Shown: one piece after another, positions 5,925-51,664 of the stretch
How positions within the stretch are numbered: the first letter of the stretch is position 1
How the letters are laid out: each line of letters opens with the position of its first letter
Notes under the pieces: generated by a model
Told to the model about the DNA's origin: nothing
Database searches by the model: none
What the model saw: the letters and a program-made list of their open reading frames with translations, nothing else
Assembly (NCBI GenBank): GCA_027452165.1
Contig: DAIDGX010000024.1
Location: 186,001-250,000, forward strand
DNA length: 64,000 bases
Direction: 5' to 3'
Origin: Vulcanimicrobiota bacterium
GTDB lineage: Bacteria > Vulcanimicrobiota > Vulcanimicrobiia > Vulcanimicrobiales > Vulcanimicrobiaceae
Made by a program: the position numbers and the translations under genes

Positions 5925-7199
5925 CTAAGATTGCTCTTCGCCGAGGGCAGCCGCAACGTCTCCCGCGCGGCCCAGGGGGATGCGCCGGTCGGTGCGCGCC
6001 TCCAAATCCCGCACCACGAGTTCACCCGCGGCCAGTTCGTCGCTGCCAAGGATCAGCGCGTACCGGGCGTTGTTGCGGTCGGCCATCTTCAGGTGCGCGA
6101 GGAGCTTGCGGTCGTCGTAGTCCATGAAGACCGGCTGCGCGAGCATCCGCCGCAGTTCGGTTACGAGCGGCACCAGCAGCGCACGTGCTTGGGTGCCAAG
6201 GCCGATCGCTTGCACGCCCGCGCGCGGCTGCTCGACCTCGCCGTGCAGCGCATCGAGCATCATCAAGAAGCGTTCGAGGCCGAGCGCGAAACCCACGGCC
6301 GGTGTAGGCGGACCGCCGAGCGAGGCCACGAGCCCATCGTAGCGCCCGCCGCCACAGACCGTCGATTGCGCGCCCAGTACGCATGAGATGATCTCGAAGA
6401 CCGTGCGGGTGTAGTAGTCGAGGCCGCGCACGATCTTCGGGTTCACAACGTAGGGAATACCGGCCGCGTCGAGGTATGCGCGCAACGCCGCAAAGTGCTC
6501 GCGACACGCATCACAGAGCACCGATTCAAACGTCGGCGCCGTTGTAACGAAAGCGTGGTCGCGCTCATCCTTGCTATCGAGGATGCGCAGCGGGTTCTTT
6601 TCCAATCGACGTTGCGAATCGGCCGAGAGTTCGTCTGCATGCGGACGAAAATGCGCGAGCAACGCTTCGCGGTAGCGCGGACGGCACACGTCGTCGCCGA
6701 TCGTGTTGACGTTCAGCACCGCGTCTTCGATGCCGTGGCTGCGCACGAGTTCCCACGCAAGGGCGATCACTTCGAAGTCCGCCTCGGGCCCCGCGTACCC
6801 CGTGCACTCGACGCCAAACTGATGCGCTTGCCGATAGCGCCCCTTCTGCGGACGCTCGTAGCGGAAGATCGGCCCAACGTAATACCAGCGCTGCGGTCCC
6901 TGCCCGAATAGCTTATGTTCGAGCGCGGCGCGCATCACCGGCGCCGTGAACTCCGGACGCAGCGTGATGCTGCGCTCGCCCTTGTCGAAAAAGGTGTACA
7001 TCTCTTTCTCGACGATGTCCGTGGTCTCGCCGACGCCACGCACGAAAAGCTCGGTCGATTCAAAGATCGGCGTTCGCATCTCGCCGTAGCCAAAACGGCG
7101 CGCGAGATCGTGGATACGCCGTTCGAGCGCAAGCCAGCGCGCCGAGGTTGGCGGCAGAATATCTTGTGTGCCGCGCGGTGCGGTGATGTGTGAGGACAT
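5925..7199 (-). CDS. hisS: Histidyl-tRNA synthetase
   Basis: A 424-aa class II aminoacyl-tRNA synthetase. Motifs: APRGTQDILPP at the N-terminus, the motif 2 region TLRPEFTAPVMRA and RYERPQKGRYRQAHQFGVEC, the histidine-specific VRGLDYYTRTVFEI, and the motif 3 region GGRYDGLVASLGGPPTPAVGFALGLER. The C-terminal anticodon-binding domain runs from about 330 to the end. I chose the ATG at 7197-7199 (MSSHITAPRG) because a GGAGAGG ribosome-binding site lies just upstream. It is the first gene of the operon running down to the glycosyltransferases. Confidence 0.96.
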   Translation of the reverse strand: MSSHITAPRGTQDILPPTSARWLALERRIHDLARRFGYGEMRTPIFESTELFVRGVGETTDIVEKEMYTFFDKGERSITLRPEFTAPVMRAALEHKLFGQGPQRWYYVGPIFRYERPQKGRYRQAHQFGVECTGYAGPEADFEVIALAWELVRSHGIEDAVLNVNTIGDDVCRPRYREALLAHFRPHADELSADSQRRLEKNPLRILDSKDERDHAFVTTAPTFESVLCDACREHFAALRAYLDAAGIPYVVNPKIVRGLDYYTRTVFEIISCVLGAQSTVCGGGRYDGLVASLGGPPTPAVGFALGLERFLMMLDALHGEVEQPRAGVQAIGLGTQARALLVPLVTELRRMLAQPVFMDYDDRKLLAHLKMADRNNARYALILGSDELAAGELVVRDLEARTDRRIPLGRAGDVAAALGEEQS

Positions 7200-7270
7200 G
7201 GGCCTCTCCCGGGTTCGCACGGCGCGTCCCTAATCCTAGATGCACGCGCACCAGGAGGGATGGACGCACG

Positions 7271-8398
7271 ATGCGCCCTGCGATCTACGTCACAGCCATC
7301 CTCGCACTCTGCGCGCTCGCGCCCGGAACGATGCGCCAGGTACTGGTGGCCGCGGCGAGCGTGCTGCTGGAAAGCCTGCCCTATCTCGCGGCGGCCGCTG
7401 CAGCGCGCCCGTTGCTCCGGTCCTGGGCTCCGCGGCTCTTCGCCTATGCCGGCTGCGGATGCGCACCGGGTCCGAGCGCGCGTTCGCTGCCCGCCGCTCT
7501 CGCCTGCGCGCTGCTCTTTAGCCCCTGGGCCGCGCTCGCACGGGTGGCCGCCGGCACGATTGCCGCGCGGATCCATCCGCCCGCCCCGGGGCACGAGCAT
7601 GCCGGTGACCTTGCGGCGGAGCTCGTGCGCCTGACGCCGAGCGCCCTCGTCGCGGCGGGAGTGCTCATCGCGGCTCCGTGGCTCGCCATCGCGCACTGGC
7701 CCGCACCTTGGCAAACGCTCGCCGGGGCGATCTTGGGCATCGGCTCCGGCCCATGCGCGCTCGGCACCGTCGCACTGGCCGCGACCTTGCGCACACAGGC
7801 GCCGCTCGCGGCCTACGCTGCGCTCGCTGCGGGCGGCACGATCGACCTGCGGGCCCTGGTGCGGTCGTCGCACCGGGACGAACACGGAGGAGCGCTTGCA
7901 TATCTCGCGCTCGCGGCCGCCTGCGCGGTGACCGCCGCCCTCCACGGCGCCTCGCTCGTGCATCCGCACTTTGCGCTGCCGCTCGCGCTCTGCGCCGTGA
8001 TGGCGCTCGCACACGTGCCACGTTCGCGCACGCCCGGGAGCATGGCGCCCACGCTGGTCGCGACGGCGCTGCTGATCGCGGTGGTAATCGGCGCCCCGAT
8101 GCCTGCCTATCACGCGAGCGAAACCACACTCGCCGATGCGTTCCCAGGCGAGCATCTCGATTTCACCGGCGTGTACCGCAACGACGCCTCGCACGGCACG
8201 CTCGTGCGCTATGCCATCACGTGCTGTCGCGCCGACGCGCATCCCGTCGCCGCGTTGCTGGCGCGACGTTTACCGTTGCATGACGGAACGTGGGTACAGG
8301 CACGCGGCGTGCTTGCACGGCGTGGCGATGCACTCGTCTTCGTCACGAGGCATGCGCAAGCGATCGCGCCGCCGCACGACCCTTTCGTGTACGAGTAA
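7271..8398 (+). CDS. Polytopic permease-like protein with DUF1980/YcgQ-like C-terminal domain
   Basis: A 375-aa protein preceded by an AGGAGG ribosome-binding site, with ATG at 7271. Residues 1-290 contain about eight hydrophobic segments. An early VLLESLPYLAAA helix and a GCGCAPGPSA motif at 61-70 resemble the E-x-LP and C-x-C-x-x-P landmarks of the DUF318/YcgR-type permeases. The C-terminal 90 residues are non-membrane and contain RYAITCCRADAHPV with vicinal Cys 318-319. This resembles the conserved CC-x-ADA-x-P core of the TIGR03943/DUF1980 (YcgQ) family, usually a separate gene next to the permease. Function of either family is uncertain (metal or thiol handling has been suggested). It is divergent from hisS. 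Assignment is by motif recall only. Confidence 0.6.
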   Translation: MRPAIYVTAILALCALAPGTMRQVLVAAASVLLESLPYLAAAAAARPLLRSWAPRLFAYAGCGCAPGPSARSLPAALACALLFSPWAALARVAAGTIAARIHPPAPGHEHAGDLAAELVRLTPSALVAAGVLIAAPWLAIAHWPAPWQTLAGAILGIGSGPCALGTVALAATLRTQAPLAAYAALAAGGTIDLRALVRSSHRDEHGGALAYLALAAACAVTAALHGASLVHPHFALPLALCAVMALAHVPRSRTPGSMAPTLVATALLIAVVIGAPMPAYHASETTLADAFPGEHLDFTGVYRNDASHGTLVRYAITCCRADAHPVAALLARRLPLHDGTWVQARGVLARRGDALVFVTRHAQAIAPPHDPFVYE

Positions 8399-8412: not shown

Positions 8413-8814
8413 TTACGAGAGGCCCGCGCGCCGGCGCGGCTCGAGCACCTCGATCGGGATGCCGTTCGGGTCTTCGACGAAGGCGATCGCGCGCGTTCCA
8501 CTCGGCGATTTGTACACGTCCTTGAGAACGTTCACGCCCTTGCTCTTGAGACCGGCGACGTACGGCTCGAGATCGCCGTCGGCTTCAATCGCCAGATGCT
8601 CGTAGCGATTTCCAAGCGCATACGGCGGATGCTCTTCGAGATCGTACACGAGCTCGATGTATGCGTTCCAGTCGTGCCCCACGAACGCCATGTCGGCGTT
8701 GCCCGGATAGTGGTGCGGCCCGTCGAGCAACCTCAACCCGAGCTTCTCGGTATAAAACGCGATCGACTCGTCCATGTCGTTGACGAAGATCGACGTGTGT
8801 AAAAAGCGCGGCAT
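8413..8814 (-). CDS. gloA: VOC-family glyoxalase I-like protein
   Basis: A 133-aa vicinal-oxygen-chelate protein of typical glyoxalase I length. It starts MPRFLHTSIFVNDMDESIAF and contains AYIELVYDLE, YEHLAIEADG and IPIEVLEPRR. These supply the His/Glu/His/Glu metal ligands in the expected order (first His about residue 6, last Glu about 123). Likely role: isomerising the hemithioacetal of methylglyoxal and a low-molecular-weight thiol to a lactoyl thioester. Whether this organism uses glutathione cannot be seen. It converges with the permease gene (14-base gap). Confidence 0.8.
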   Translation of the reverse strand: MPRFLHTSIFVNDMDESIAFYTEKLGLRLLDGPHHYPGNADMAFVGHDWNAYIELVYDLEEHPPYALGNRYEHLAIEADGDLEPYVAGLKSKGVNVLKDVYKSPSGTRAIAFVEDPNGIPIEVLEPRRRAGLS

Positions 8815-8913
8815 GTCATCTAACTCCCTTCAGTCGCCTACAACCAGACGTGCCGGCCAGGGGCCGGCGGAACCAGGACTCTGGAAATTGTGGCGCACCA
8901 ACCTTGTACTAGG

Positions 8914-8953
8914 GCATTGGAGCCGACTGCAACCGATGCGTCGGCTCCAATGC
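8914..8953. repeat. Strong inverted repeat (14-bp perfect stem)
   Basis: The arms GCATTGGAGCCGAC (8914-8927) and its exact complement (8940-8953) flank a 12-base loop. The site lies in the 193-base gene-free stretch between gloA and the secreted-protein gene to its right. There is no run of T on either side, so it is not a textbook intrinsic terminator. It may still end the minus-strand transcript or mark the edge of the lower-GC insertion. Nothing else recognisable is in 8815-9007. Confidence 0.7.
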
Positions 8954-9007
8954 TAACGATTCCCACAGATAGAACCAGACAACCGCTCAAAAACGCGGTT
9001 CCGCCGA

Positions 9008-9484
9008 CTAGCTTCCTTGGGGATACGATCCATTCCATACGTCACGAAAGCACGCATGAATCGTAAACGACTGGCCTCGGGCACGTGCGCTCACGAGATG
9101 CAAGCCATAAAGCGCCTTGGTGATCGATGCGTCGTTCAGTGGAATTGCACCGAGTGGAATATATCGATCCCAGGGCCCAACGTGGTAGGGGTTCCGAAAT
9201 ATCCGAGTTTTCTCAAACGGCATCAGGAGCAGATTATGCGTTATTTTTCCTGTTAGAATATACCCAACGAGCTTTGTCTCGTGGGCGAGGGTGAGCCAAT
9301 GAATATCTTCCAAAGGCTCCATATTGTATGTCGCAACCTGTCCTTTATACGTTGGTAGTCCTTGTCCAATAAACAACGGGCTTTGCCCTTGAACTGGGCA
9401 TGCTGATTTATAGTGCGCTGATGGAAGCGCAGATATCGGTTGTGCGCTCGCGATCGCGCCAAGGAGGAACAATGCGTGAAACAT
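9008..9484 (-). CDS. Secreted two-cysteine protein of unknown function
   Basis: A 158-aa protein starting at the ATG at 9482-9484 (MFHALFLLGAIASA), a clear signal peptide with a probable cleavage near ASA-QP. The mature part has a Cys close to its start (KSACPVQGQS), a central KLVGYILTGKITHN strand pair, and a terminal IHACFRDVWNGSYPQGS. I do not recognise a named family. The C-terminal ACF-x-x-x-WNGSYP is shared with the next gene upstream (ACFTSPWNGSYPG), so the two are paralogues. Base composition is visibly lower in GC than the flanking housekeeping genes, suggesting acquisition. Likely exported with one disulfide. Confidence 0.6.
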   Translation of the reverse strand: MFHALFLLGAIASAQPISALPSAHYKSACPVQGQSPLFIGQGLPTYKGQVATYNMEPLEDIHWLTLAHETKLVGYILTGKITHNLLLMPFEKTRIFRNPYHVGPWDRYIPLGAIPLNDASITKALYGLHLVSARARGQSFTIHACFRDVWNGSYPQGS

Positions 9485-9492
9485 GATAGCCT

Positions 9493-10305
9493 TTACCCCG
9501 GGTACGATCCGTTCCACGGGCTCGTGAAACAGGCTTTCTGCAATGTTGGCACAACGCCGTTCGTCGCAAATTTGACGAACGCGCTTAAAATCGAGCCGAC
9601 CTTGGATCCCTCTATGAAGGAGTCGGTCCCCACGGGAAGAGCGATCGATGAGTTTATCGATACACCTGCTCCGACACTTCCGGTCCCTACGAAGTACGCC
9701 AACCCGTTATTTCCGCTGCTCCCCCACGTTGTGTACACGTATCCAGCAACAAAAGTTCCTGAATCCACTTGGTACTCGTTCGTTATACGATTTGCATCAG
9801 TCGGTGCTAGGCCGGGGACTGGATGACCGATTTGCTCGGCGGCGTTCGTGCATTGATCGTTATATTGAGCGGGGCCGAGGACAGTGGCAACGGGTGTACC
9901 GCCGCCGCCACTGCCGCACTTACGTATCAGCGGTGACACGGCGCCACCGGGGCCCATAGCGATCGAGCACGGGTTTACGGGGGGTGGGTTGCTGCCACCG
10001 CCATCACCAGGGCCACCGCCGCCGGTCACGACGACGCAGGGACCGGTACAAATGTTCGGAGGCGTGCCAGAGGAATCCGGCGTCATGCGCCTCGGCGATG
10101 GCGAAGCGGCCGGCGCCGAGACGAGCGGCGCGGGCGAACTCGCAATGTCGCCTGCGGACGCACCGCCAAAGCGTGTCTGGGTGTTTGCAAGCCTTCCATG
10201 GTTCGGCGCAGTGAACATGGCGGGCATCATCCCCGCGCCCTGACTCGAACATGCGGCGAGGATGCTCCCCGCCACGGCCGCGCAGAGATATCTCTTGAGG
10301 AACAA
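9493..10305 (-). CDS. Lipoprotein, two-cysteine family, unknown function
   Basis: A 270-aa protein if started at the TTG at 10303-10305, which has a GGAG site 7 bases upstream and gives MFLKRYLCAAVAGSILAACS, a good lipoprotein signal with lipobox ILAAC. An ATG further upstream (10485) would run the gene back through the dispersed repeat and is less likely. After the lipid-modified Cys come about 110 residues of Pro/Gly/Ser-rich linker, then a domain with YNDQCTNAAEQIG, a FVAGYVYTTWG strand and the terminal ACFTSPWNGSYPG. It is paralogous to the adjacent secreted protein; 8 bases separate them. No function can be assigned. Confidence 0.6.
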   Translation of the reverse strand: MFLKRYLCAAVAGSILAACSSQGAGMMPAMFTAPNHGRLANTQTRFGGASAGDIASSPAPLVSAPAASPSPRRMTPDSSGTPPNICTGPCVVVTGGGGPGDGGGSNPPPVNPCSIAMGPGGAVSPLIRKCGSGGGGTPVATVLGPAQYNDQCTNAAEQIGHPVPGLAPTDANRITNEYQVDSGTFVAGYVYTTWGSSGNNGLAYFVGTGSVGAGVSINSSIALPVGTDSFIEGSKVGSILSAFVKFATNGVVPTLQKACFTSPWNGSYPG

Positions 10306-10385
10306 CAAAAAACTCCGTTCTTGACCGATCTGCAAGCTCCGGATATGGACGTGGCAATAGCGCGGCACGAAGCCACCGCCATCGA

Positions 10386-10550
10386 ACGTACTCGCCCACA
10401 CCTCGGGCATGAGACCACCTACGCGTATTGATCTCAACGATACGTGCTGTTGCACAATTGCGATAGGGTCACCTTCGGGCAACAATGCTCAAAAGGTCCT
10501 GGCACGTTGAGTGATCGTCACGGCCGAAGCATGCTTGCCCCGTGCTGCGA
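10386..10550. repeat. Dispersed repeat, copy A (longest copy)
   Basis: Bases 10386-10506 match 47090-47209 in inverted orientation with scattered mismatches (shared blocks include ACTCGCCCACACCTCGGGC and CAAAAGGTCCTGGC). Bases 10471-10550 match 37285-37363 in direct orientation. Copy A therefore spans the whole known repeat. It lies just upstream of the lipoprotein gene at 9493-10305, in the same relative orientation as copy C upstream of 47291. The rest of the 10306-10651 interval shows no gene I can support. Confidence 0.85.
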
Positions 10551-10651: not shown

Positions 10652-12226
10652 TTAGTGTAAGAAGTAGCGATACGACGAGAAGACGAGCGCAACGCCGAGG
10701 TGATCGGCGGCGGCGATCACCTCGTCGTCGCGCACCGAACCGCCGGGAGCGATGATTGCGGTGCATCCACCTTCGACGGCGGCCTCGAGCCCATCGGCGA
10801 AGGGAAAGAATCCGTCGCTCGCGCACGCGGCGCCCTTGGCTGCATCGCCCGCGCGATGCGCCGCGATCTTCACCGCGCTCACGCGGTTGGTTTGGCCCGC
10901 GCAGATGCCACGCGTGGTTCCACCGCTTACGATTACGATGCCATTGGATTTCACATGGCGCACCACGTCCCAGGCGAACGCGAGATCGTGCCACTCCTGA
11001 GCGGTCGGTTGTCGCTTGGAGACCACGCGCCACTGCTCGAGCGGCGCTTCGGGATTGTCATCCTCGGCTAGCACGCCGCCAAGCGCACTGCGCACACGCA
11101 GTTCGCGCGCCAGGATATCCGGCAACCCAGGCGTGAACCGCATGATGCGCAGGTTCTTCTTTTTCTTCAACAAGGCGAGCGCGTCGTCGTCGAATGCGGG
11201 TGCAGCCACGATCTCAAGGAAAAACTTCGCGAGCGACTGCGCGGCCTCGAGGTCGATACGCCCATCCGTAGCCACGATTCCCCCGAACGCGGAAACAGGG
11301 TCGGCTTCGAGCGCGTCGTGGATTGCCTTACCGACGCTCGAACGCTGAGCGACCCCACACGGAACCGTATGCTTGACAACGGCAGCGCGCACGAAGCGGT
11401 CGCGTTCGCTGCCGAACTCGGCGCCAAGCGCGGCGCGTGATAGCAGACGCAACGTGCCGTCGAGATCGAGCAGGTTATTGTAAGAGAGCGCCTTGCCATG
11501 CAACTGCTCCGGCAAACGCTCGGGACGTTGCAGATAGAACGCGGCGCGGTTCTGCGGGTTCGTACCGTAGCGCAACCGCTGCGAGAGCGGCGCGGTGAGC
11601 GCGAGCGCGCCAGGCAATTCGCTCGGAAGATACTGTCCGGCCGAGCCGAGATAGTGCGAGATCGCAACGTCGTACTCGGCGGTTCGTTCGAACGCGGCGA
11701 TTGCAAAGTTGCGCCGCATCGTAGGAGGGATCGTTCCGCTGCGGAACGCCGCGAGGAACTCGTCGTACTGCGATGGATGAGTGAGAATCGCAACGTGTGC
11801 AAAATTCTTCGCCGCCGCGCGCAGCAGCGAGACGCCGCCGATGTCGATTTGCTCGATCGCCTCTTGCAGCGTTGTGCCTTCGCGCGCGACCGTCGCTTCA
11901 AACGGATAGAGGTTGACCACCACGGTCGTGATGGGAGCGATCGCGTACTTCTCGGCCTGCGAACAATGATCGGGATTGTCGCGGTCGTAGAGGATCGCGC
12001 CGAACACCTTCGGGTGCAGCGTCTTCACGCGGCCGTCGAAGAGCTCAGGAAATCCGGTCATCTCCCCGACGTCGTGCGCGGGAATACCGTGCTCGTCCAG
12101 GTGGCGCTTGGTGCCGCCGGTCGCATAGATCACGGTGCCTGCCTCGTGCAGGGCACGTGCGAGCTCAACCGCACCCGTCTTATCCGAGAGCGAAAACAGT
12201 GCGGCGGGTTTCGTGGTATCAGGCAA
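10652..12226 (-). CDS. purH: Bifunctional AICAR transformylase / IMP cyclohydrolase
   Basis: A 524-aa protein of typical PurH length; it catalyses the last two steps of IMP synthesis. The N-terminal MGS-like cyclohydrolase domain shows ALFSLSDKTGAVELARAL, ATGGTKRHLDEHG, GRVKTLHPKVFGAIL and IDIGGVSLLRAAAKN. The transformylase domain shows RYGTNPQNRAAFY, the catalytic K-H pair in VVKHTVPCGVA (the usual Asn before Pro is Val), SAFGGIVA, and GICAGQTNRVSAVKIA. The C-terminus ASDGFFPFADGL to SSYRYFLH is divergent from the usual TGxRHFxH. It starts with TTG at 12224-12226, overlapping the smc stop by 8 bases, so purine synthesis is coupled here to smc/rnc. Confidence 0.95.
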   Translation of the reverse strand: MPDTTKPAALFSLSDKTGAVELARALHEAGTVIYATGGTKRHLDEHGIPAHDVGEMTGFPELFDGRVKTLHPKVFGAILYDRDNPDHCSQAEKYAIAPITTVVVNLYPFEATVAREGTTLQEAIEQIDIGGVSLLRAAAKNFAHVAILTHPSQYDEFLAAFRSGTIPPTMRRNFAIAAFERTAEYDVAISHYLGSAGQYLPSELPGALALTAPLSQRLRYGTNPQNRAAFYLQRPERLPEQLHGKALSYNNLLDLDGTLRLLSRAALGAEFGSERDRFVRAAVVKHTVPCGVAQRSSVGKAIHDALEADPVSAFGGIVATDGRIDLEAAQSLAKFFLEIVAAPAFDDDALALLKKKKNLRIMRFTPGLPDILARELRVRSALGGVLAEDDNPEAPLEQWRVVSKRQPTAQEWHDLAFAWDVVRHVKSNGIVIVSGGTTRGICAGQTNRVSAVKIAAHRAGDAAKGAACASDGFFPFADGLEAAVEGGCTAIIAPGGSVRDDEVIAAADHLGVALVFSSYRYFLH

Positions 12227-15200
12227 GGGCGAGCTCCGGTTCGTGCGACTGCGTGAGCGATGCCGCGATCACCGTGCTCACGCCGGGCTCCTTCATCGTG
12301 ACGCCGTACATGCGGTCGGCAAGCTCCATCGTCTTCTTATTGTGGGTGACGATGATCATCTGCGCGTCGGTCGCAAGCTCACGCACCATGCTCGAGAAGC
12401 GATCGACGTTTGCGTCATCGAGCGCCGCATCGACCTCATCGAGCAGATAGAACGGCGACGGCTTCACCCGGATCAGCGCGAAGATCAGCGCCGCCGCCGT
12501 CATCGCGCGTTCGCCGCCCGAGAGCGTAGCCAGCGGCATCAGTTTCTTGCCCGGTGGCTGCACCGAGATTTCGATCCCCGTCTCCGAGAGATTCTCGGGA
12601 TTCGTTTGCCACATCTTTGCCGACCCGCCCGGGAAGAGCTTGGCATACATCTCGGTAAAGGCGCTTGAGACCTTTTCGAAGGTTTCGTTGAACTGCGCTT
12701 GCGACTGCGCCTCGATCTCCTTGATCGATTCGAGCAGCGTCTCGCGAGCTTTTGCGAGATCCTCCAATTGCGTGCGCAAGAACGTCTCCCGCTCGCCGAG
12801 CTCATCGCGCTCGGCTTCAGCGTTCAAATTGACGTTGGCGGAAAGGCGTGCCAGTTCTTCGCGCAAGCGAGGCAGCTCTTCCATGACCGCATCGGACTCA
12901 TCGCGGTAGCGCTCTTCGACATCCTTGCACTCGTCGTCCGTGGCGGGGTTCTGTGCGAACTGCGACACGAGCATGCCGAGTTCGGCCTCGATCTCGGCAA
13001 GACGCATGCGGTGGCGCTCGCCACCCGCAAGCGCCTCGCGTTCTTCGTTTTCGGCGGTGCGCAACTCGCCTTCAAGCGCGAGCAGCCGGTCCGCCGAGGC
13101 TTCGCGTTCGCGCCGGGCCACTTCCAGACGCGCGTCGAGATCGCGAACGCCCTCGCGCAAGCCGTCCACGTGCGCGTGCGCGGTGCGCGTCTGCTCGACA
13201 AGCGTACCGATCTCGGCCAACATTGCCTCGCGCGCGATCCGCGCGCGCTCGCTATTTGCATCGAGCATGCCCAAGCGCCCTTTGGCGGCGTCGCGCTCCG
13301 CGGTGATCGCGGCGACCCGTTCGCGCAGCTCGGCCGCATGGCGGCTCGCCTCGGTCTGCACGCGTTCGGCCTGCGCGATCTCTTCACGCGCGCGCGCCAA
13401 ATCTACCTCGAGGCGTTGACGCTCTTCGTCGCCCTGCATCGCTTCGCTCTCGGGCGCTTCGTGAGCGCGCTCGCGTTCGCGTGCTTCTCGCGCGCGCACG
13501 AGCAGATCTTCGACCCGTGCCTGTGCGCCGAGCACATCGCCGTTCATGCGCTCGAGATCGCTTGTAAGCGCCACCATCTCGGTGCGCAACTCCGCGATCT
13601 GCACCTCGATGCGTCCGAGCGCTTCCCGTGCCGCATCGCGCGCGGCGATCGCCGCTTCGGCGCGCGTGCCCGCAGCGTGGGCGGCGCGTTCGAGCGATTC
13701 GAGCTTCGCGCGCATCTCGGCGAGCGTCTCACGCAGCGTCTGCGCCTGCACGCGACGCGAGAGAATCGATTTCTCACGGCGAAAACGCCCGCCAGTAATC
13801 GCGCCGCCGCCCGCGATCTGCTCGCCGGAGAGCGTTACGACCGTATCGCGGAAGCCACGGCTGCGCACCAAGTGGATGCCGGTTTGCAGCGTATCGACGA
13901 TCAGCATGTTCCCCACGAGGAACCGCACCACGCCTTCGTACTGCTCCGAGGTGCGCACGAGCGCGTGCGCGTAGCCGATGACACCCGGGGTGCGCTCGAG
14001 CTCGGGCGTCATTTGCTTTGCATCGCGGTTTGCGAGCGTGTCGAGTGGAAGGAACGTGGCGCGTCCCTGCTCGCTACGGTTCAAGTACTCGATCGCGCGT
14101 TCGGCATCTTCCGAGGTGCGCGTGATGATATTCGAAAGGCGCGCGCCAAACGCCACGTCGAGCGCACGCGCGTAGCGTTCGTCGGTCGTGATCAGATTGG
14201 AAACGATGCCTTCGATACCGCGCAGTTCGCCGCGCTGCATAGCCTCGATCACGGCGCGCGTGCCCGGAACGTGGCCTTCGAGCGAGTTCTCGAGCTCTTC
14301 GATCGTGTGCAAACGCGATTCGGCGGCCTTGACCTCACCAGTCTGCTCGCGGTGCGCGGCAAGCGCGGTTGCGAGATCGCCTTGCGCCTGGCTCACCGCA
14401 ACCTCCGCGTCCTCCATGGCGCCGCGCGCAGCCAGCGCTTGGCCATCCAGCGCGGCGAGCTGCGCCTCGCGTTCCGTGTAACGCTGAGTCGCACCGCCGG
14501 CGGCAAGCTCCAACTGCGCCACCATCTCGCGTGCGGCGTGCGCCTCGGCGTCCAGACGCTCGGCTTCGGCGCGCAAGTTCTCGCCCTGAACGCGCCGCTC
14601 GGCTTTTTTGGCAGCGTACGTTGCGGCGGTTGCCTCAACTTCGCGCAAGCGCGTGAAGATCGCGTCGAGCTGCGCGCGCGTCTGCGAGAGCGTCTGCTGC
14701 GCCGCAAGTTCGCGCTCACGCGCGGCATCGACGTTGGTCGCAAGCGGTGCGAGGCGCTCTTCGAGGTCGCCGATCGTGGCGGCGAGCGATTCGCGCTCCG
14801 CTTGCACGCGCGCCGCGTCTTCCGAGGTCTGCGTCGATTGCGCTTCGAGCGCTTCGCGACGCGCGAGCGCGGCGGCGTAGTCAGCCTCGATCCGCGCGAG
14901 CTCGGCACGCTTGCCCTGCGACTGCGCGCGCAACTCATCGAGCGCGAGTTCTTGTTGGTATGCCCGCGTACGCAACTCGGCGAGGTTGGCGCCGTACTGC
15001 GCCACCTTCGCGGCGGCCAGGCCGCGAATCTCCTCTTGACGTTCGAGTTCGACGCGAAGCTGCTCCCGTTCGATGCGACGCGAATGGCTCGCACGCATGT
15101 ACGAGAGGATCTCGAGGTCGCGCACGCGCGCATGTACCTTGCGATAGCGTTTGGCACGGCGTACTTGCGTTTCGAGCTCGGGAATGCGGCGTTCGAGTTC

Positions 15201-37284: not shown

Positions 37285-37363
37285 ACCTTCGGGCAACGAT
37301 GGTCAAAAGGTCCTGGCACATTGCGTGATCGTTACGGCGCAGGTCCGTTTACCCGTGCTGCGA
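37285..37363. repeat. Dispersed repeat, copy B (partial)
   Basis: It matches 10471-10550 in direct orientation. ACCTTCGGGCAAC and then TCAAAAGGTCCTGGCAC are nearly identical, followed by TG-GTGATCGT-ACGGC and CGTGCTGCGA at the same spacing. The other half of copy A is missing here. It lies between the lipoprotein hairpin and the end of trpS. Confidence 0.8.
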
Positions 37364-47089: not shown

Positions 47090-47209
47090 GCCAGGACCTT
47101 TTGACCATCGCTGCCAGAAGGTGACGTAATCGCAATTGCGCAACGGTATGCATCGTTGAGATCATCACGCCTAGCGGTGGTCTCATGCCCGAGGTGTGGG
47201 CGAGTACGT
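47090..47209. repeat. Dispersed repeat, copy C (inverted relative to copy A)
   Basis: It is the reverse complement of 10386-10506 with scattered differences; the longest shared blocks are TGGTCTCATGCCCGAGGTGT and CCAGGACCTTTTGA. It lies 82 bases upstream of the hypothetical gene at 47291, in the same orientation relative to that gene as copy A has to the lipoprotein gene at 9493-10305. A weaker partial match (TGCCAGGACCTT and flanks) is at about 49618-49645. Confidence 0.85.
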
Positions 47210-47290: not shown

Positions 47291-47680
47291 ATGATGCACC
47301 ACTATCCACAGTACGCGCTTTTTCGCAGAATGCCGGACTTTGCGCGGTGTGCCGGCTCGACGCTTGACGTCGGGGCGCCTGTTGCAGCGCCTCCGCATGA
47401 AACGGGAGCCTACGTCGTCTCGATCGGCGAGATCGTCGATCGGAGCGAAAACGTGCTGGGTTGGATATACCTCGTCGATGAACACGGCGTGCGCTCCAGA
47501 GTCGTGAACCTGCGAAAGGGCGCGACGAAAGAAGAGCTTCGTGCGGGCGGGCTCCGCATCGGAACGGGCGATTCGGTGTCGTCTTTTGCGACGCTCGGTA
47601 AGGTGTGGCCGTGGCGCACGCTTCATGCGGTCCCCTGTCGCGATATGCAAATTCCGAAAGCGTCGCAAGGGGTGGGCTGA
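47291..47680 (+). CDS. Hypothetical two-cysteine protein
   Basis: A 129-aa protein, ATG 47291 preceded by AGGGGG. It begins MMHHYPQYALFRRMPDFARC without a clear signal peptide, possibly N-terminally truncated. The body reads FARCAGSTLDVG, a strand pair SENVLGWIYLVDEHG, then HAVPCRDMQ near the C-terminus. Two Cys at similar places and the NVLG-[WY]-[IV] strand recall the proteins at 47682 and 50398 and, more distantly, those at 9008 and 9493. Function is unknown. It is followed by the next gene after 1 base. Confidence 0.5.
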   Translation: MMHHYPQYALFRRMPDFARCAGSTLDVGAPVAAPPHETGAYVVSIGEIVDRSENVLGWIYLVDEHGVRSRVVNLRKGATKEELRAGGLRIGTGDSVSSFATLGKVWPWRTLHAVPCRDMQIPKASQGVG

Positions 47681-47681
47681 C

Positions 47682-48014
47682 ATGATTACACTCGTTGCAC
47701 TACACGCGATGTTGACGCGCATACATGCACCCGACAGCGCCCGGTGCCCCGGATCGCAGTACGGCGTTCTGGATAACATCGCGCCGCGCCCTCATCCTGA
47801 TGTCCTGTCCGAGGGACGGTTGGACGAAGAAGGCAGCAATGTCGGAACGATCTATCTGGCCAGCAATGACAAGCTGTACATCGTAGCCTATAAAACCATG
47901 AGAGCGCCCCGCCAGCGCTATTTTCACGCTATAGCCGGCAGGTTTCCGTATTCGCCGATGGTTCTTCTACGTGTCGCGATTCCGGATGGCATGAACGTCA
48001 CACCCTGCTCCTAG
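47682..48014 (+). CDS. Hypothetical two-cysteine protein
   Basis: A 110-aa protein, ATG 47682 directly after the previous stop. MITLVALHAMLTRIHAP is a weak signal-like start; then DSARCPGSQYGVLDN, a central VGTIYLASNDKLYIVAYK and a terminal NVTPCS. The layout (early C-x-GS, central GTIY-type strand, terminal Cys) resembles its neighbour. No family was recognised. The following interval 48015-48219 contains nothing I can support. Confidence 0.5.
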   Translation: MITLVALHAMLTRIHAPDSARCPGSQYGVLDNIAPRPHPDVLSEGRLDEEGSNVGTIYLASNDKLYIVAYKTMRAPRQRYFHAIAGRFPYSPMVLLRVAIPDGMNVTPCS

Positions 48015-48219
48015 CGGACGGTTAAGCTACATGCTTCGGCGTCGTTGTCGATGCGCTCGGCGCGCAGATCGCCACGTACGAAGTTACGCCGAGTATCCAT
48101 ATTTTCAATGCAACGTGCCATACGGGCACTTCCGCGCGGGCTCAGACCTCCGGGAACAACATGGCTGTGCAAACTCGTAACAACCGGTAGCGGGCCGGGG
48201 CATGCAGCTTGAGTCCCGC

Positions 48220-50397: not shown

Positions 50398-50760
50398 CTA
50401 GAGCTTTAAGTCACGTTGAAAACAACCGTCGTAGATGATATCCGCGCCAAGAAATCGCCCAATATCCTTGGGATCGATTCTCTCATATCTGACCGCGAGC
50501 AGATCCTCGTACCACAACGATCCGTCCCGAGCTCGAACGACGTACCCGAGCACGTTTTTTTCTCCGCGCCTCTTGATGGCCCATATGTTGACGGCGGTAG
50601 AACCCCGACCACTGCCAAAGACATTGGAGGTTCCCAGGGCCGTCGTTGACCCGTCGCAATGCGCTCCCGGCGTGGGCCCGAGAATTCCAGGCCTCAAACG
50701 ATCATCGAGCTGCTGAAAAAGTGGTGCGATCGTGGCGAAAAGAGCGAAGGCTTGCAGCAT
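50398..50760 (-). CDS. Hypothetical two-cysteine protein, possibly secreted
   Basis: A 120-aa protein. MLQAFALFATIAPLFQQ is a weak signal-like start. The rest has PTPGAHCDGSTTALGTS, a central KNVLGYVVRARDGSLWYEDL and a terminal IIYDGCFQRDLKL. The C-x-GS, NVLGY-V and late Cys positions match the neighbours at 47291 and 47682. It lies between the two IS256 fragments, so it may have travelled with them. No function can be given. Confidence 0.5.
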   Translation of the reverse strand: MLQAFALFATIAPLFQQLDDRLRPGILGPTPGAHCDGSTTALGTSNVFGSGRGSTAVNIWAIKRRGEKNVLGYVVRARDGSLWYEDLLAVRYERIDPKDIGRFLGADIIYDGCFQRDLKL

Positions 50761-50874
50761 GTAACGAAACTATCCCTGCTCGGCAGTTGGCAATGCCCGG
50801 ATAAGCGTGTAGAACGGTCGTCCTGCTGCCCGTCGAGGTCGCAGGCGGCCATCGGGCCAACTCTTGTGATTGTA

Positions 50875-51330
50875 ATGAGTAAACGCAAGAGAAAGGACCC
50901 GATGACCATCCCGAACCTTACGCACGAGCAGCGCTTGGCCCTGGCCGACCTGCTTAGCAACAAAGACGTCGACGTGCTGCGCGAGATGCTCGCGACCGTG
51001 TACGACGCGGCCATCAAGGCGCAACTTGAGCAGCACATCGGCGTCGGACACTACGAGCGCGGCGACGAGCGGCAAGATCGCCGCAATGGCAGCAGGATCC
51101 GCGGTCTCAATACCCGAGCCGGAAGTATCGAGCTGGAGATCCCGCGCTCGCGCGAAACACCGTTTCGACCGACCGTCATCGAGCAGTTTCGGCGCAGCGA
51201 ACGAGCGTTGGTTTCGGTCATTCAAGAGGCATTCACCGGCGGTATCAGTACGCGCAAGATGGAGGACGTGCTTGCGGCGATGGGGGTAGAGCACCTGAGC
51301 AAGTCGCAGATCAGTGACGTAGTATGTCAC
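50875..51330 (+). pseudogene. IS256-family transposase, N-terminal remnant
   Basis: From ATG 50875 the frame reads MSKRKRKDPMTIPNLTHEQR, DVDVLREMLATVYDAAIKAQ, GVGHYERGDERQDRRNGSRI, GSIELEIPRSRETPFRPTVI and FTGGISTRKMEDVLAAMGVE, ending LSKSQISDV. This is the N-terminal third of an IS256/mutator transposase. After about 51326 homology stops and the frame runs on to 51438 as unrelated sequence; the whole DDE catalytic domain is missing. It lies downstream of a C-terminal fragment, so the two pieces are in the wrong order to be one interrupted gene. Confidence 0.85.
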
Positions 51331-51430
51331 CGGCATAGACCGCTCGGGAAAAACATCGCGGGCGTGCGGTTAAACAACGCCCTTAATCAATATTATGGGG
51401 CGCAGGATCGCCTCCAGCAATTCAGCTGCC

Positions 51431-51664
51431 ATGATTAGAGTTCTTCCCTTGCTAATCGAGGCAAATTTTGTGTGGTTGTGGCGCAACCGGATTTATGGGC
51501 CCATTTCCACGCTGTTCTTTGGATTGTGGGCGATCGCGATGCTCATTCAACCGCATAATCGCCTTGTGGTTTACTACATGGCGCCCATCGCTTTCTTTCT
51601 TGTGCTGATCGACACCGCGCGACTCTTCGCACGAGGCTTTGCGCCAAGAACGGGCTGGTGGTAA
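51431..51664 (+). CDS. Small hydrophobic membrane protein
   Basis: A 77-aa frame from ATG 51431: MIRVLPLLIEANFVWLWRNR, then two hydrophobic segments YGPISTLFFGLWAIAMLI and VVYYMAPIAFFLVLIDTA, and a basic tail. Starting inside the IS remnant's run-on frame and convergent with the next gene, it has no recognised family. Codon use and hydrophobic layout favour a real gene, but not strongly. Confidence 0.4.
   Translation: MIRVLPLLIEANFVWLWRNRIYGPISTLFFGLWAIAMLIQPHNRLVVYYMAPIAFFLVLIDTARLFARGFAPRTGWW

Follow-up and report, generated by a model that had tools for sequence, protein, structure and literature searches.

The 64,000-nucleotide stretch analysed here, referred to as the window, covers positions 186001-250000 of contig 24 (C24) in a 2.64-Mb genome and contains five open reading frames, p1 to p5, which raise the question whether proteins of such different sequence form one family and what the genes around them have in common. 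The p1 (9008-9505) and p2 (9493-10305) genes are located on the reverse strand, p3 (47291-47680) and p4 (47682-48014) on the forward strand and p5 (50398-50760) again on the reverse strand. All five frames are present, and each deduced protein contains the early cysteine, the central G[YWT][IV] strand and the late cysteine that the original prediction had described, as well as, in p1 and p2, the common motif ACF-x3-WNGSYP. The accompanying description as small proteins is wrong for p2, a lipoprotein of 270 amino acids, and the signal-like starts ascribed to most members were recovered in p1, p2 and p5, weakly in p4 and not in p3. The location in islands of lower G+C content holds, with 54.2% at 9-10 kb, 59.2% at 47-48 kb and 58.2% at 50-51 kb compared with approximately 65% in the surrounding DNA. 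As for the insertion sequence fragments said to flank one member, a fragment of a Mutator-family transposase (50860-51438, forward strand; Pfam PF00872, E 8e-35) adjoins p5 on one side.

Pairwise comparisons within a database of the five proteins linked p3 to p4 (E 2e-5), p1 to p2 (E 5e-4, by the C-terminal motif only) and p3 to p5 (E 0.03), with no link from p1 or p2 to p3, p4 or p5. Searches with single proteins were too weak, p2 yielding hits in 15 of 78 genomes at E ≤1 that were mostly chance frames, and p1 in 10 of 78 genomes with nothing convincing besides p1 itself; profiles were therefore needed. Profiles that include the relatives connect all five proteins, as had been supposed. When each member was removed from the profile together with everything at least 40% identical to it and compared with 200 shuffles per member, the five proteins scored 12.6 (p1), 31.4 (p2), 50.8 (p3), 36.8 (p4) and 36.4 bits (p5), the shuffles reaching at most 8.0 bits. 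The weakest of the five is p1, with an E value of 0.033 for 3000 sequences and shuffles of its own of up to 4.0 bits. Altogether, 58 of 59 members exceeded all 200 shuffles, the 59th (Cp3) having been wrongly trimmed.

Of 388 genomes, 16 contained matches (E ≤0.01) to A2, a profile built from p3-like proteins, 15 of these genomes belonging to the same GTDB family as the source genome; A6, a profile built from lipoprotein tips, gave matches in 19, of which 18 are in that family. Together, the two profiles detected 24 genomes of the family at E ≤0.01, some of them weakly, the family comprising 99 genomes that are possibly not all contained in the 388. The matches outside the family, G381 and G343, are candidates for chance, a few such hits being expected from 388 genomes at E 0.01. 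The proposal of a lineage-specific secreted family is thus upheld with respect to the lineage, since the profiles join the five proteins and their matches are almost confined to one GTDB family, and with respect to secretion for many members, though not for those of the p3 type. Searches of the five proteins against Pfam, PADLOC, NCBIfam and PHROG named none of them, the exception being a PHROG without assigned function that matched p3 (E 0.035), and PADLOC and NCBIfam gave no matches for ten proteins. Structure prediction with AlphaFold2, bearing on a common fold and disulfide, reached a pLDDT of 66 for p3 and of 41 for an A-type tip, the latter from six sequences only, and a Foldseek search with the p3 model found no PDB match at E <1, the best hits (E 1.0) being unrelated kinases. 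Among viral contigs, 31 stretches fit the search pattern and none encodes a relative, so that the idea of a phage-borne family lost ground.

A comparison of gene contexts shows that the two-cysteine domain occupies two places, namely the C-terminal tip of a lipoprotein (type A) and a small partner protein encoded directly downstream (type B). The A6 profile retrieved B-type proteins that are absent from its alignment, with E values of 6e-5 to 4e-4. The proteins p1 to p5 belong to one fast-evolving family, which is half of a larger system and in which both types share one domain. The A-type lipoproteins, consisting of a lipobox, a linker rich in glycine, proline and cysteine and the two-cysteine tip, include p2 and the proteins of G001, G015 (two or three loci), G086, G106 (two), G087, G096, G114, G104, G022, G085, G116, G101 (two) and G082, along with Cp1, which is encoded by the copy at C24:178 kb. 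A lipobox with a hydrophobic core was detected by script in 13 of 21 lipoproteins; four of the other eight (p2, C8a, G114 and the Cp1 leader) contain LAAC by eye, below the hydrophobicity threshold of the script, and the remaining four (G096, G106a, G022 and G082) have no usable N-terminus for this check. In the window, p2 starts with TTG, carries the LAAC lipobox and the linker and ends in an A-type tip (GPAQYNDQC...WNGSYPG; 9493-9876, reverse strand) that was delimited by the A6 alignment and the comparison of tip boundaries. A relative of p2 is encoded in G001 (E 2.1e-9).

All 18 A-type lipoproteins with enough sequence are followed directly by a gene for a two-cysteine partner, whereas the contig of the 19th, G085, ends 199 nt after the tip. 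Thirteen of these partners are profile matches; p1 and the partners of G001, G106b, G101b and G082 were first recognised by eye, and these five pass the leave-out test with 12.6 to 27.3 bits against at most 5.7 for shuffles. The genes of lipoprotein and partner overlap or nearly touch, as at L127, where the lipoprotein gene ends at 756 and the partner gene starts at 753. Within the window, p1 is the secreted B-type partner of p2; an alternative ATG at 9484, 8 nt past the p2 stop codon, is possible, and p1 shares 29.6% identity over 162 amino acids with the partner at the same position in G001. The p3, p4 and p5 proteins resemble B-type partners without a lipoprotein gene of their own. A DNA copy of p3 that is 88% identical was found at C4 of the same genome, and p5 matched the partner of G101b (E 3e-7) and G079c (E 2e-6) by blastp. 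Many partners carry a signal, and most B-type partners are predicted to be secreted; a clear signal is absent from p3, C4, C5 and the partners of G015a, G015b and G114. A hydrophobic stretch, often rich in glycine, is stronger in the tip than in the partner in 17 of 18 pairs, a comparison confounded by the greater length of the tips, and suggests that the tips might act on membranes.

The dispersed repeat that had been reported beside two members was found in one copy upstream of p2 and in one upstream of p3, and it represents a 5' module shared by these genes, composed of an upstream region and a lipoprotein signal. At p2, the module (10220-10517, reverse strand) comprises approximately 200 nt of upstream region and the start of the lipoprotein signal; over 235-300 nt it shares 87-90% identity with the copies that the genome carries at C8, C24:178 kb and C5. 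It was found at six places in the source genome and not in ten relatives. The copies at p2, C8 and C24:178 kb measure approximately 285-300 nt at 87-91% identity and span the upstream DNA and the signal LFLKRYLCAAVAGS[IM]LAACSS, the copy at C5 measures 235 nt, and the copy upstream of p3 (47090-47209, forward strand) consists of the first 120 nt only, which are 93-96% identical to the copies at C5, C8 and C24:178 kb. A fragment at 37285-37338 on the reverse strand contains only the module beginning, with a terminator-like GAGCGGGCCCTCAC hairpin approximately 100 nt further on; it is possibly the scar of a lost cassette. An Rfam search of the module loci revealed no known RNA element for the module; the sole match was an unrelated TPP riboswitch (L059:4874-4980, reverse strand, 58.2 bits) near the C5 copy.

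The sequence that follows the module varies from copy to copy. It encodes the tip of p2 in the window, a tip of the CHAP-like kind at C8 and, in another frame, an A-type tip at C24:178 kb; C5 and p3 have a partner-type gene in this position. The lipoprotein C8a is identical to p2 in 28 of the 30 N-terminal residues and ends in a different tip. Moreover, at C8 the CHAP-like tip is followed by the remnant of another lipoprotein, and the 95 nt that directly follow the module at C24:178 kb are located (96% identical) approximately 1.2 kb further on, beyond the gene for the CHAP-like protein and that for a small secreted protein, as expected from the insertion of a new tip before the old one. In the copy at C24:178 kb (L084:5785-5884) the signal and the tip lie in different frames owing to a 1-nt difference from C8 in a short G/C run, which reflects decay, phase variation or an assembly error. 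The original prediction had not recognised p2 as a lipoprotein whose tip can be exchanged, p1 as the partner co-inherited with p2, or the repeat as the 5' end common to such genes.

The exchange of tips is also visible between genomes. The tandem lipoproteins G101a and G101b are identical in 168 of 183 residues of their N-regions and carry unrelated tips; the N-regions of G022 and G085 agree to 78%, again with tips that are unrelated, and in G106b and G096 a conserved N-region is likewise joined to unrelated or strongly divergent tips, these pairs being taken from the best 28 of all N-region comparisons. The reverse pattern was observed for G086 and G106a, the tips of which are identical in 120 of 129 residues, with 32% identity in the N-region. 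At the DNA level, the G101 genes are homologous over 630 nt (91%) up to a point 14-20 nt short of the tip, and G085 and G022 over 503 nt (83%) up to a point 12-15 nt short of it; the block shared by G106 and G086 (819 nt, 85%) opens 21 nt ahead of the tip and closes 11 nt past the partner gene. With the pairs L125/L126 and L163/L165, five locus pairs in all show a break of homology 7-37 nt from the tip.

The similarity of tips closely follows that of their partners (Mantel r 0.88, p 1e-4, 18 pairs; r 0.80 without the near-identical G106a). The N-region, which served as a control for shared ancestry, correlates neither with the tip (r 0.01, p 0.31) nor with the partner (r 0.01, p 0.31) in the 16 pairs that remain after omission of G015c and G082, for which no reliable N-region is available. 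Tips are also more similar to their own partner than to the partners of others (p 5e-5, 18 pairs), with the own partner ranking first for just 3 of 18 tips, and tip and partner have pair-specific motifs in common, such as GENVPxxTxD in G101, G022 and G116. The tip and the downstream gene are thus inherited as one cassette, and the signal and linker are exchanged independently; this modular structure and co-inheritance can be regarded as very well founded.

At certain fixed sites between genes, cassettes have been acquired, lost or displaced. The gap between purH and the glyoxalase gene, which harbours p2 and p1, measures 1835 bp in the source genome, 70 bp in G001 and 861 bp with unrelated genes in G002, and the insert at 9-10 kb is absent from the sister genomes. 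Likewise, the mnmG-mnmE gap is 1111 bp long in the window, where it contains p3 and p4, and measures 519 or 1374 bp with different contents in G001 and G002, and the spot between pnp and ggt is occupied by different gene sets in G078 and G106. In G106, a cassette of lipoprotein and partner genes lies between 126-bp direct repeats (98%), each corresponding to the 5'-terminal part of an ABC-F gene, as if the insertion had duplicated the start of this gene; G091 contains one copy of the repeat and no cassette (L126:4199-4324 and 7191-7316; L123:2684-2811). Displaced or orphan modules are represented by the remnant at C8 and by p3-p4, C4 and p5, which lack a lipoprotein gene. A 16-nt stretch, CTCCTAGCGGACGGTT, is common to the end of p4 (window positions 48008-48023) and to L084:4486-4501 between two partner genes of the C24:178-kb cluster and is possibly another recombination boundary.

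An activity can be recognised for one kind of tip only, the CHAP-like tip, a predicted peptidoglycan hydrolase, which in C8a stands behind the same signal and 5' module as p2. A lipoprotein of G078 (L131:5615-6448) matched the Pfam families CHAP (E 0.003, 18.4 bits, cut-off 26) and NLPC_P60 (E 0.016, 15.6 bits, cut-off 23) as well as a PHROG endolysin (E 1.9e-4, without curated threshold). C8a itself has no Pfam match; it is 26% identical to the G078 protein and has the Cys, GDIV and His stretches in common with it. A third CHAP-like lipoprotein is encoded in G091, and a CHAP-like profile matched 4 of the 99 family genomes, one of them weakly. A phmmer search of two CHAP-like lipoproteins against PDB sequences found nothing for one and a single chance match for the other. 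No nuclease family was recognised among the tips in Pfam, NCBIfam or PHROGs.

The tips thus appear to be of at least two kinds, one a two-cysteine domain that shares homology with its partner, the other a CHAP-like peptidoglycan hydrolase. Since a predicted hydrolase and a two-cysteine domain are mounted on the same signal and linker and each is followed by a small secreted protein, the simplest reading is an effector with its immunity protein. Accordingly, a polymorphic lipoprotein effector with a cognate immunity protein may be the best explanation, to which we assign a probability of roughly 0.6. The lipid anchor would place the tip at the outer membrane, from which it could reach the envelope of a neighbouring cell on contact or by vesicles and act there, the CHAP tip on peptidoglycan and the two-cysteine tip on the envelope. 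The mostly secreted partner would bind the matching tip in the envelope of the producer and thereby confer protection. The p2/p1 pair would represent a complete cassette. The orphan partners p3, p4 and p5 and the copies at C4 and C5 would be either remnants of other cassettes or genes retained for protection against them. Several points speak against an effector with immunity protein: the two-cysteine tip is not known to be toxic and is named by none of Pfam, PADLOC, NCBIfam and PHROGs, CHAP-like tips are rare (three clear cases in 99 genomes) and score below the curated Pfam cut-offs, it is unusual for a tip to share homology with the cognate immunity protein, and the two genes that follow the CHAP tips resemble each other so weakly (E 0.04) that the likeness does not count as homology. 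The partners without signal (p3-type, G114 and G015b) also fit poorly with a single periplasmic site of action.

The homology of tip and partner and their pair-specific motifs would suit a heterodimer devoted to variable surface recognition, in which the tip is a binding or adhesion domain (for kin recognition, as a phage-receptor decoy or in superinfection exclusion) and the partner a soluble co-receptor, a chaperone or a further subunit with the same fold; toxicity would play no part. Lipoproteins with changing tips would also fit an escape from phages, and the signals on many partners are in agreement with such a role; this reading is nevertheless doubtful, as the same module carries a CHAP-like hydrolase tip, the arrays of partners without a lipoprotein (p3-p4, C4 and p5) are better suited to immunity and the viral contigs encode no relative.

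An ordinary expansion of secreted proteins duplicated by recombination, the tandem layout reflecting nothing but tandem duplication, could draw on the 88% identical DNA copies p3 and C4 and on a 1.2-kb tandem duplication in G106. It is quite improbable, because it leaves unexplained why homology blocks end at the tip boundary in both directions, why the linkage of lipoprotein and partner is complete in 18 of 18 cases and why N-regions are uncorrelated with tips. CHAP/NlpC lipoproteins that serve wall growth are common, and a co-encoded inhibitor would fit a system for wall remodelling or self-lysis in which both kinds of tips act on the wall of the producer and the partners are regulatory inhibitors. 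The patchy presence in 24 family genomes at E ≤0.01, the hypervariable tips and the empty sites are unlike a housekeeping role and make this explanation highly improbable.

Within the effector-immunity reading, a more specific scenario can be put forward tentatively, namely a contact-dependent lipoprotein toxin of Eremiobacterota in which the antidote evolved from the tip of the weapon. The additional glycine-rich hydrophobic stretch of the tip would attack envelopes, the partner, with the same fold but devoid of this stretch, would block it by forming a heterodimer, and one outer-membrane lipoprotein chassis would accommodate either this kind of tip or a peptidoglycan hydrolase, exchanged by recombination close to the cysteine-rich stretch that precedes the tip. 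For a cultured member of the Eremiobacterota, a Gram-negative envelope with an outer membrane is described in the part of PMC9758169 considered here, so that lipoproteins of the usual diderm type make sense.

Examples of polymorphic toxin systems are Rhs and CDI. The cassettes resemble such systems, as outlined in the relevant section of PMC3482391, in the conserved trafficking end, the exchangeable C-terminal domain, the adjacent immunity-type gene and the displaced or orphan modules. They differ from polymorphic toxin systems in general in that no pretoxin element of the VENN, HINT or Rhs type was recognised and recombination occurs near the cysteine-rich stretch before the tip. The nearest model is the SitA/SitI system of myxobacteria, to which the cassettes are compared by analogy and not assigned, as no nuclease tip was found. 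Common to both, according to the sections consulted of PMC5562445 and PMC8546572, are the lipobox, homologous N-regions with unrelated C-terminal domains, a disordered stretch after the lipobox, a downstream cognate gene and mobile elements nearby. In these accounts, SitA tips are mainly cytoplasmic nucleases behind an escort domain of approximately 375 amino acids, in place of which a short Cys/Gly/Pro-rich linker is present here, and SitA delivery needs TraAB (PMC5562445, PMC8546572). Unlike SitA/SitI as portrayed there, the tip is homologous to the partner, most partners have signals and the phylum is a different one. The lipobox effectors APD1 and APD2 of Amoebophilus asiaticus likewise combine a signal peptide and lipobox with a conserved N-terminus and extremely polymorphic C-termini; they are predicted to act against a eukaryotic host, and a tip-homologous partner is not described for them in the passages used from PMC3482391. 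The contact-dependent glycine-zipper bacteriocin Cdz of Caulobacter is also associated with the outer membrane and provided with a dedicated immunity protein, and the glycine-rich hydrophobic stretch of the A-type tips may add to this likeness by features, although Cdz consists of type I secreted small peptides and not of lipoproteins (PMC5380434, in the sections consulted).

No report of polymorphic toxins in Eremiobacterota was found in the open-access PMC literature, and in the cited parts of PMC5562445, PMC8546572 and PMC3482391 lipoprotein polymorphic toxins are described for myxobacteria (TraAB-dependent) and Amoebophilus (host-directed). If the effector-immunity reading is correct, a second free-living phylum would possess the lipoprotein plan, combined with a different linker, different tips and a partner related to the tip, which would mean that the plan arose more than once, and the question of delivery could be tested in a phylum from which an isolate is now available. 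Moreover, two unannotated protein families would receive a name and a partner rule, and the low-GC accessory patches between the housekeeping genes of these genomes would be explained by cassettes.

Some other small genes were noticed as well. At the position of p2 and p1, the G002 genome (L180:4657-5351) contains two different small open reading frames, one of which resembles a RelE/HigB-type toxin by eye. The pnp-ggt patch of G078 encodes two paralogous secreted peptides of 60-63 amino acids that contain cysteine and are of bacteriocin-like size (L131:11788-11979 and 12053-12235). In the tandem duplication of G106, a second unannotated family of secreted proteins (176 and 172 amino acids; L128:7340-7870 and 8578-9096) alternates with p3-type genes.
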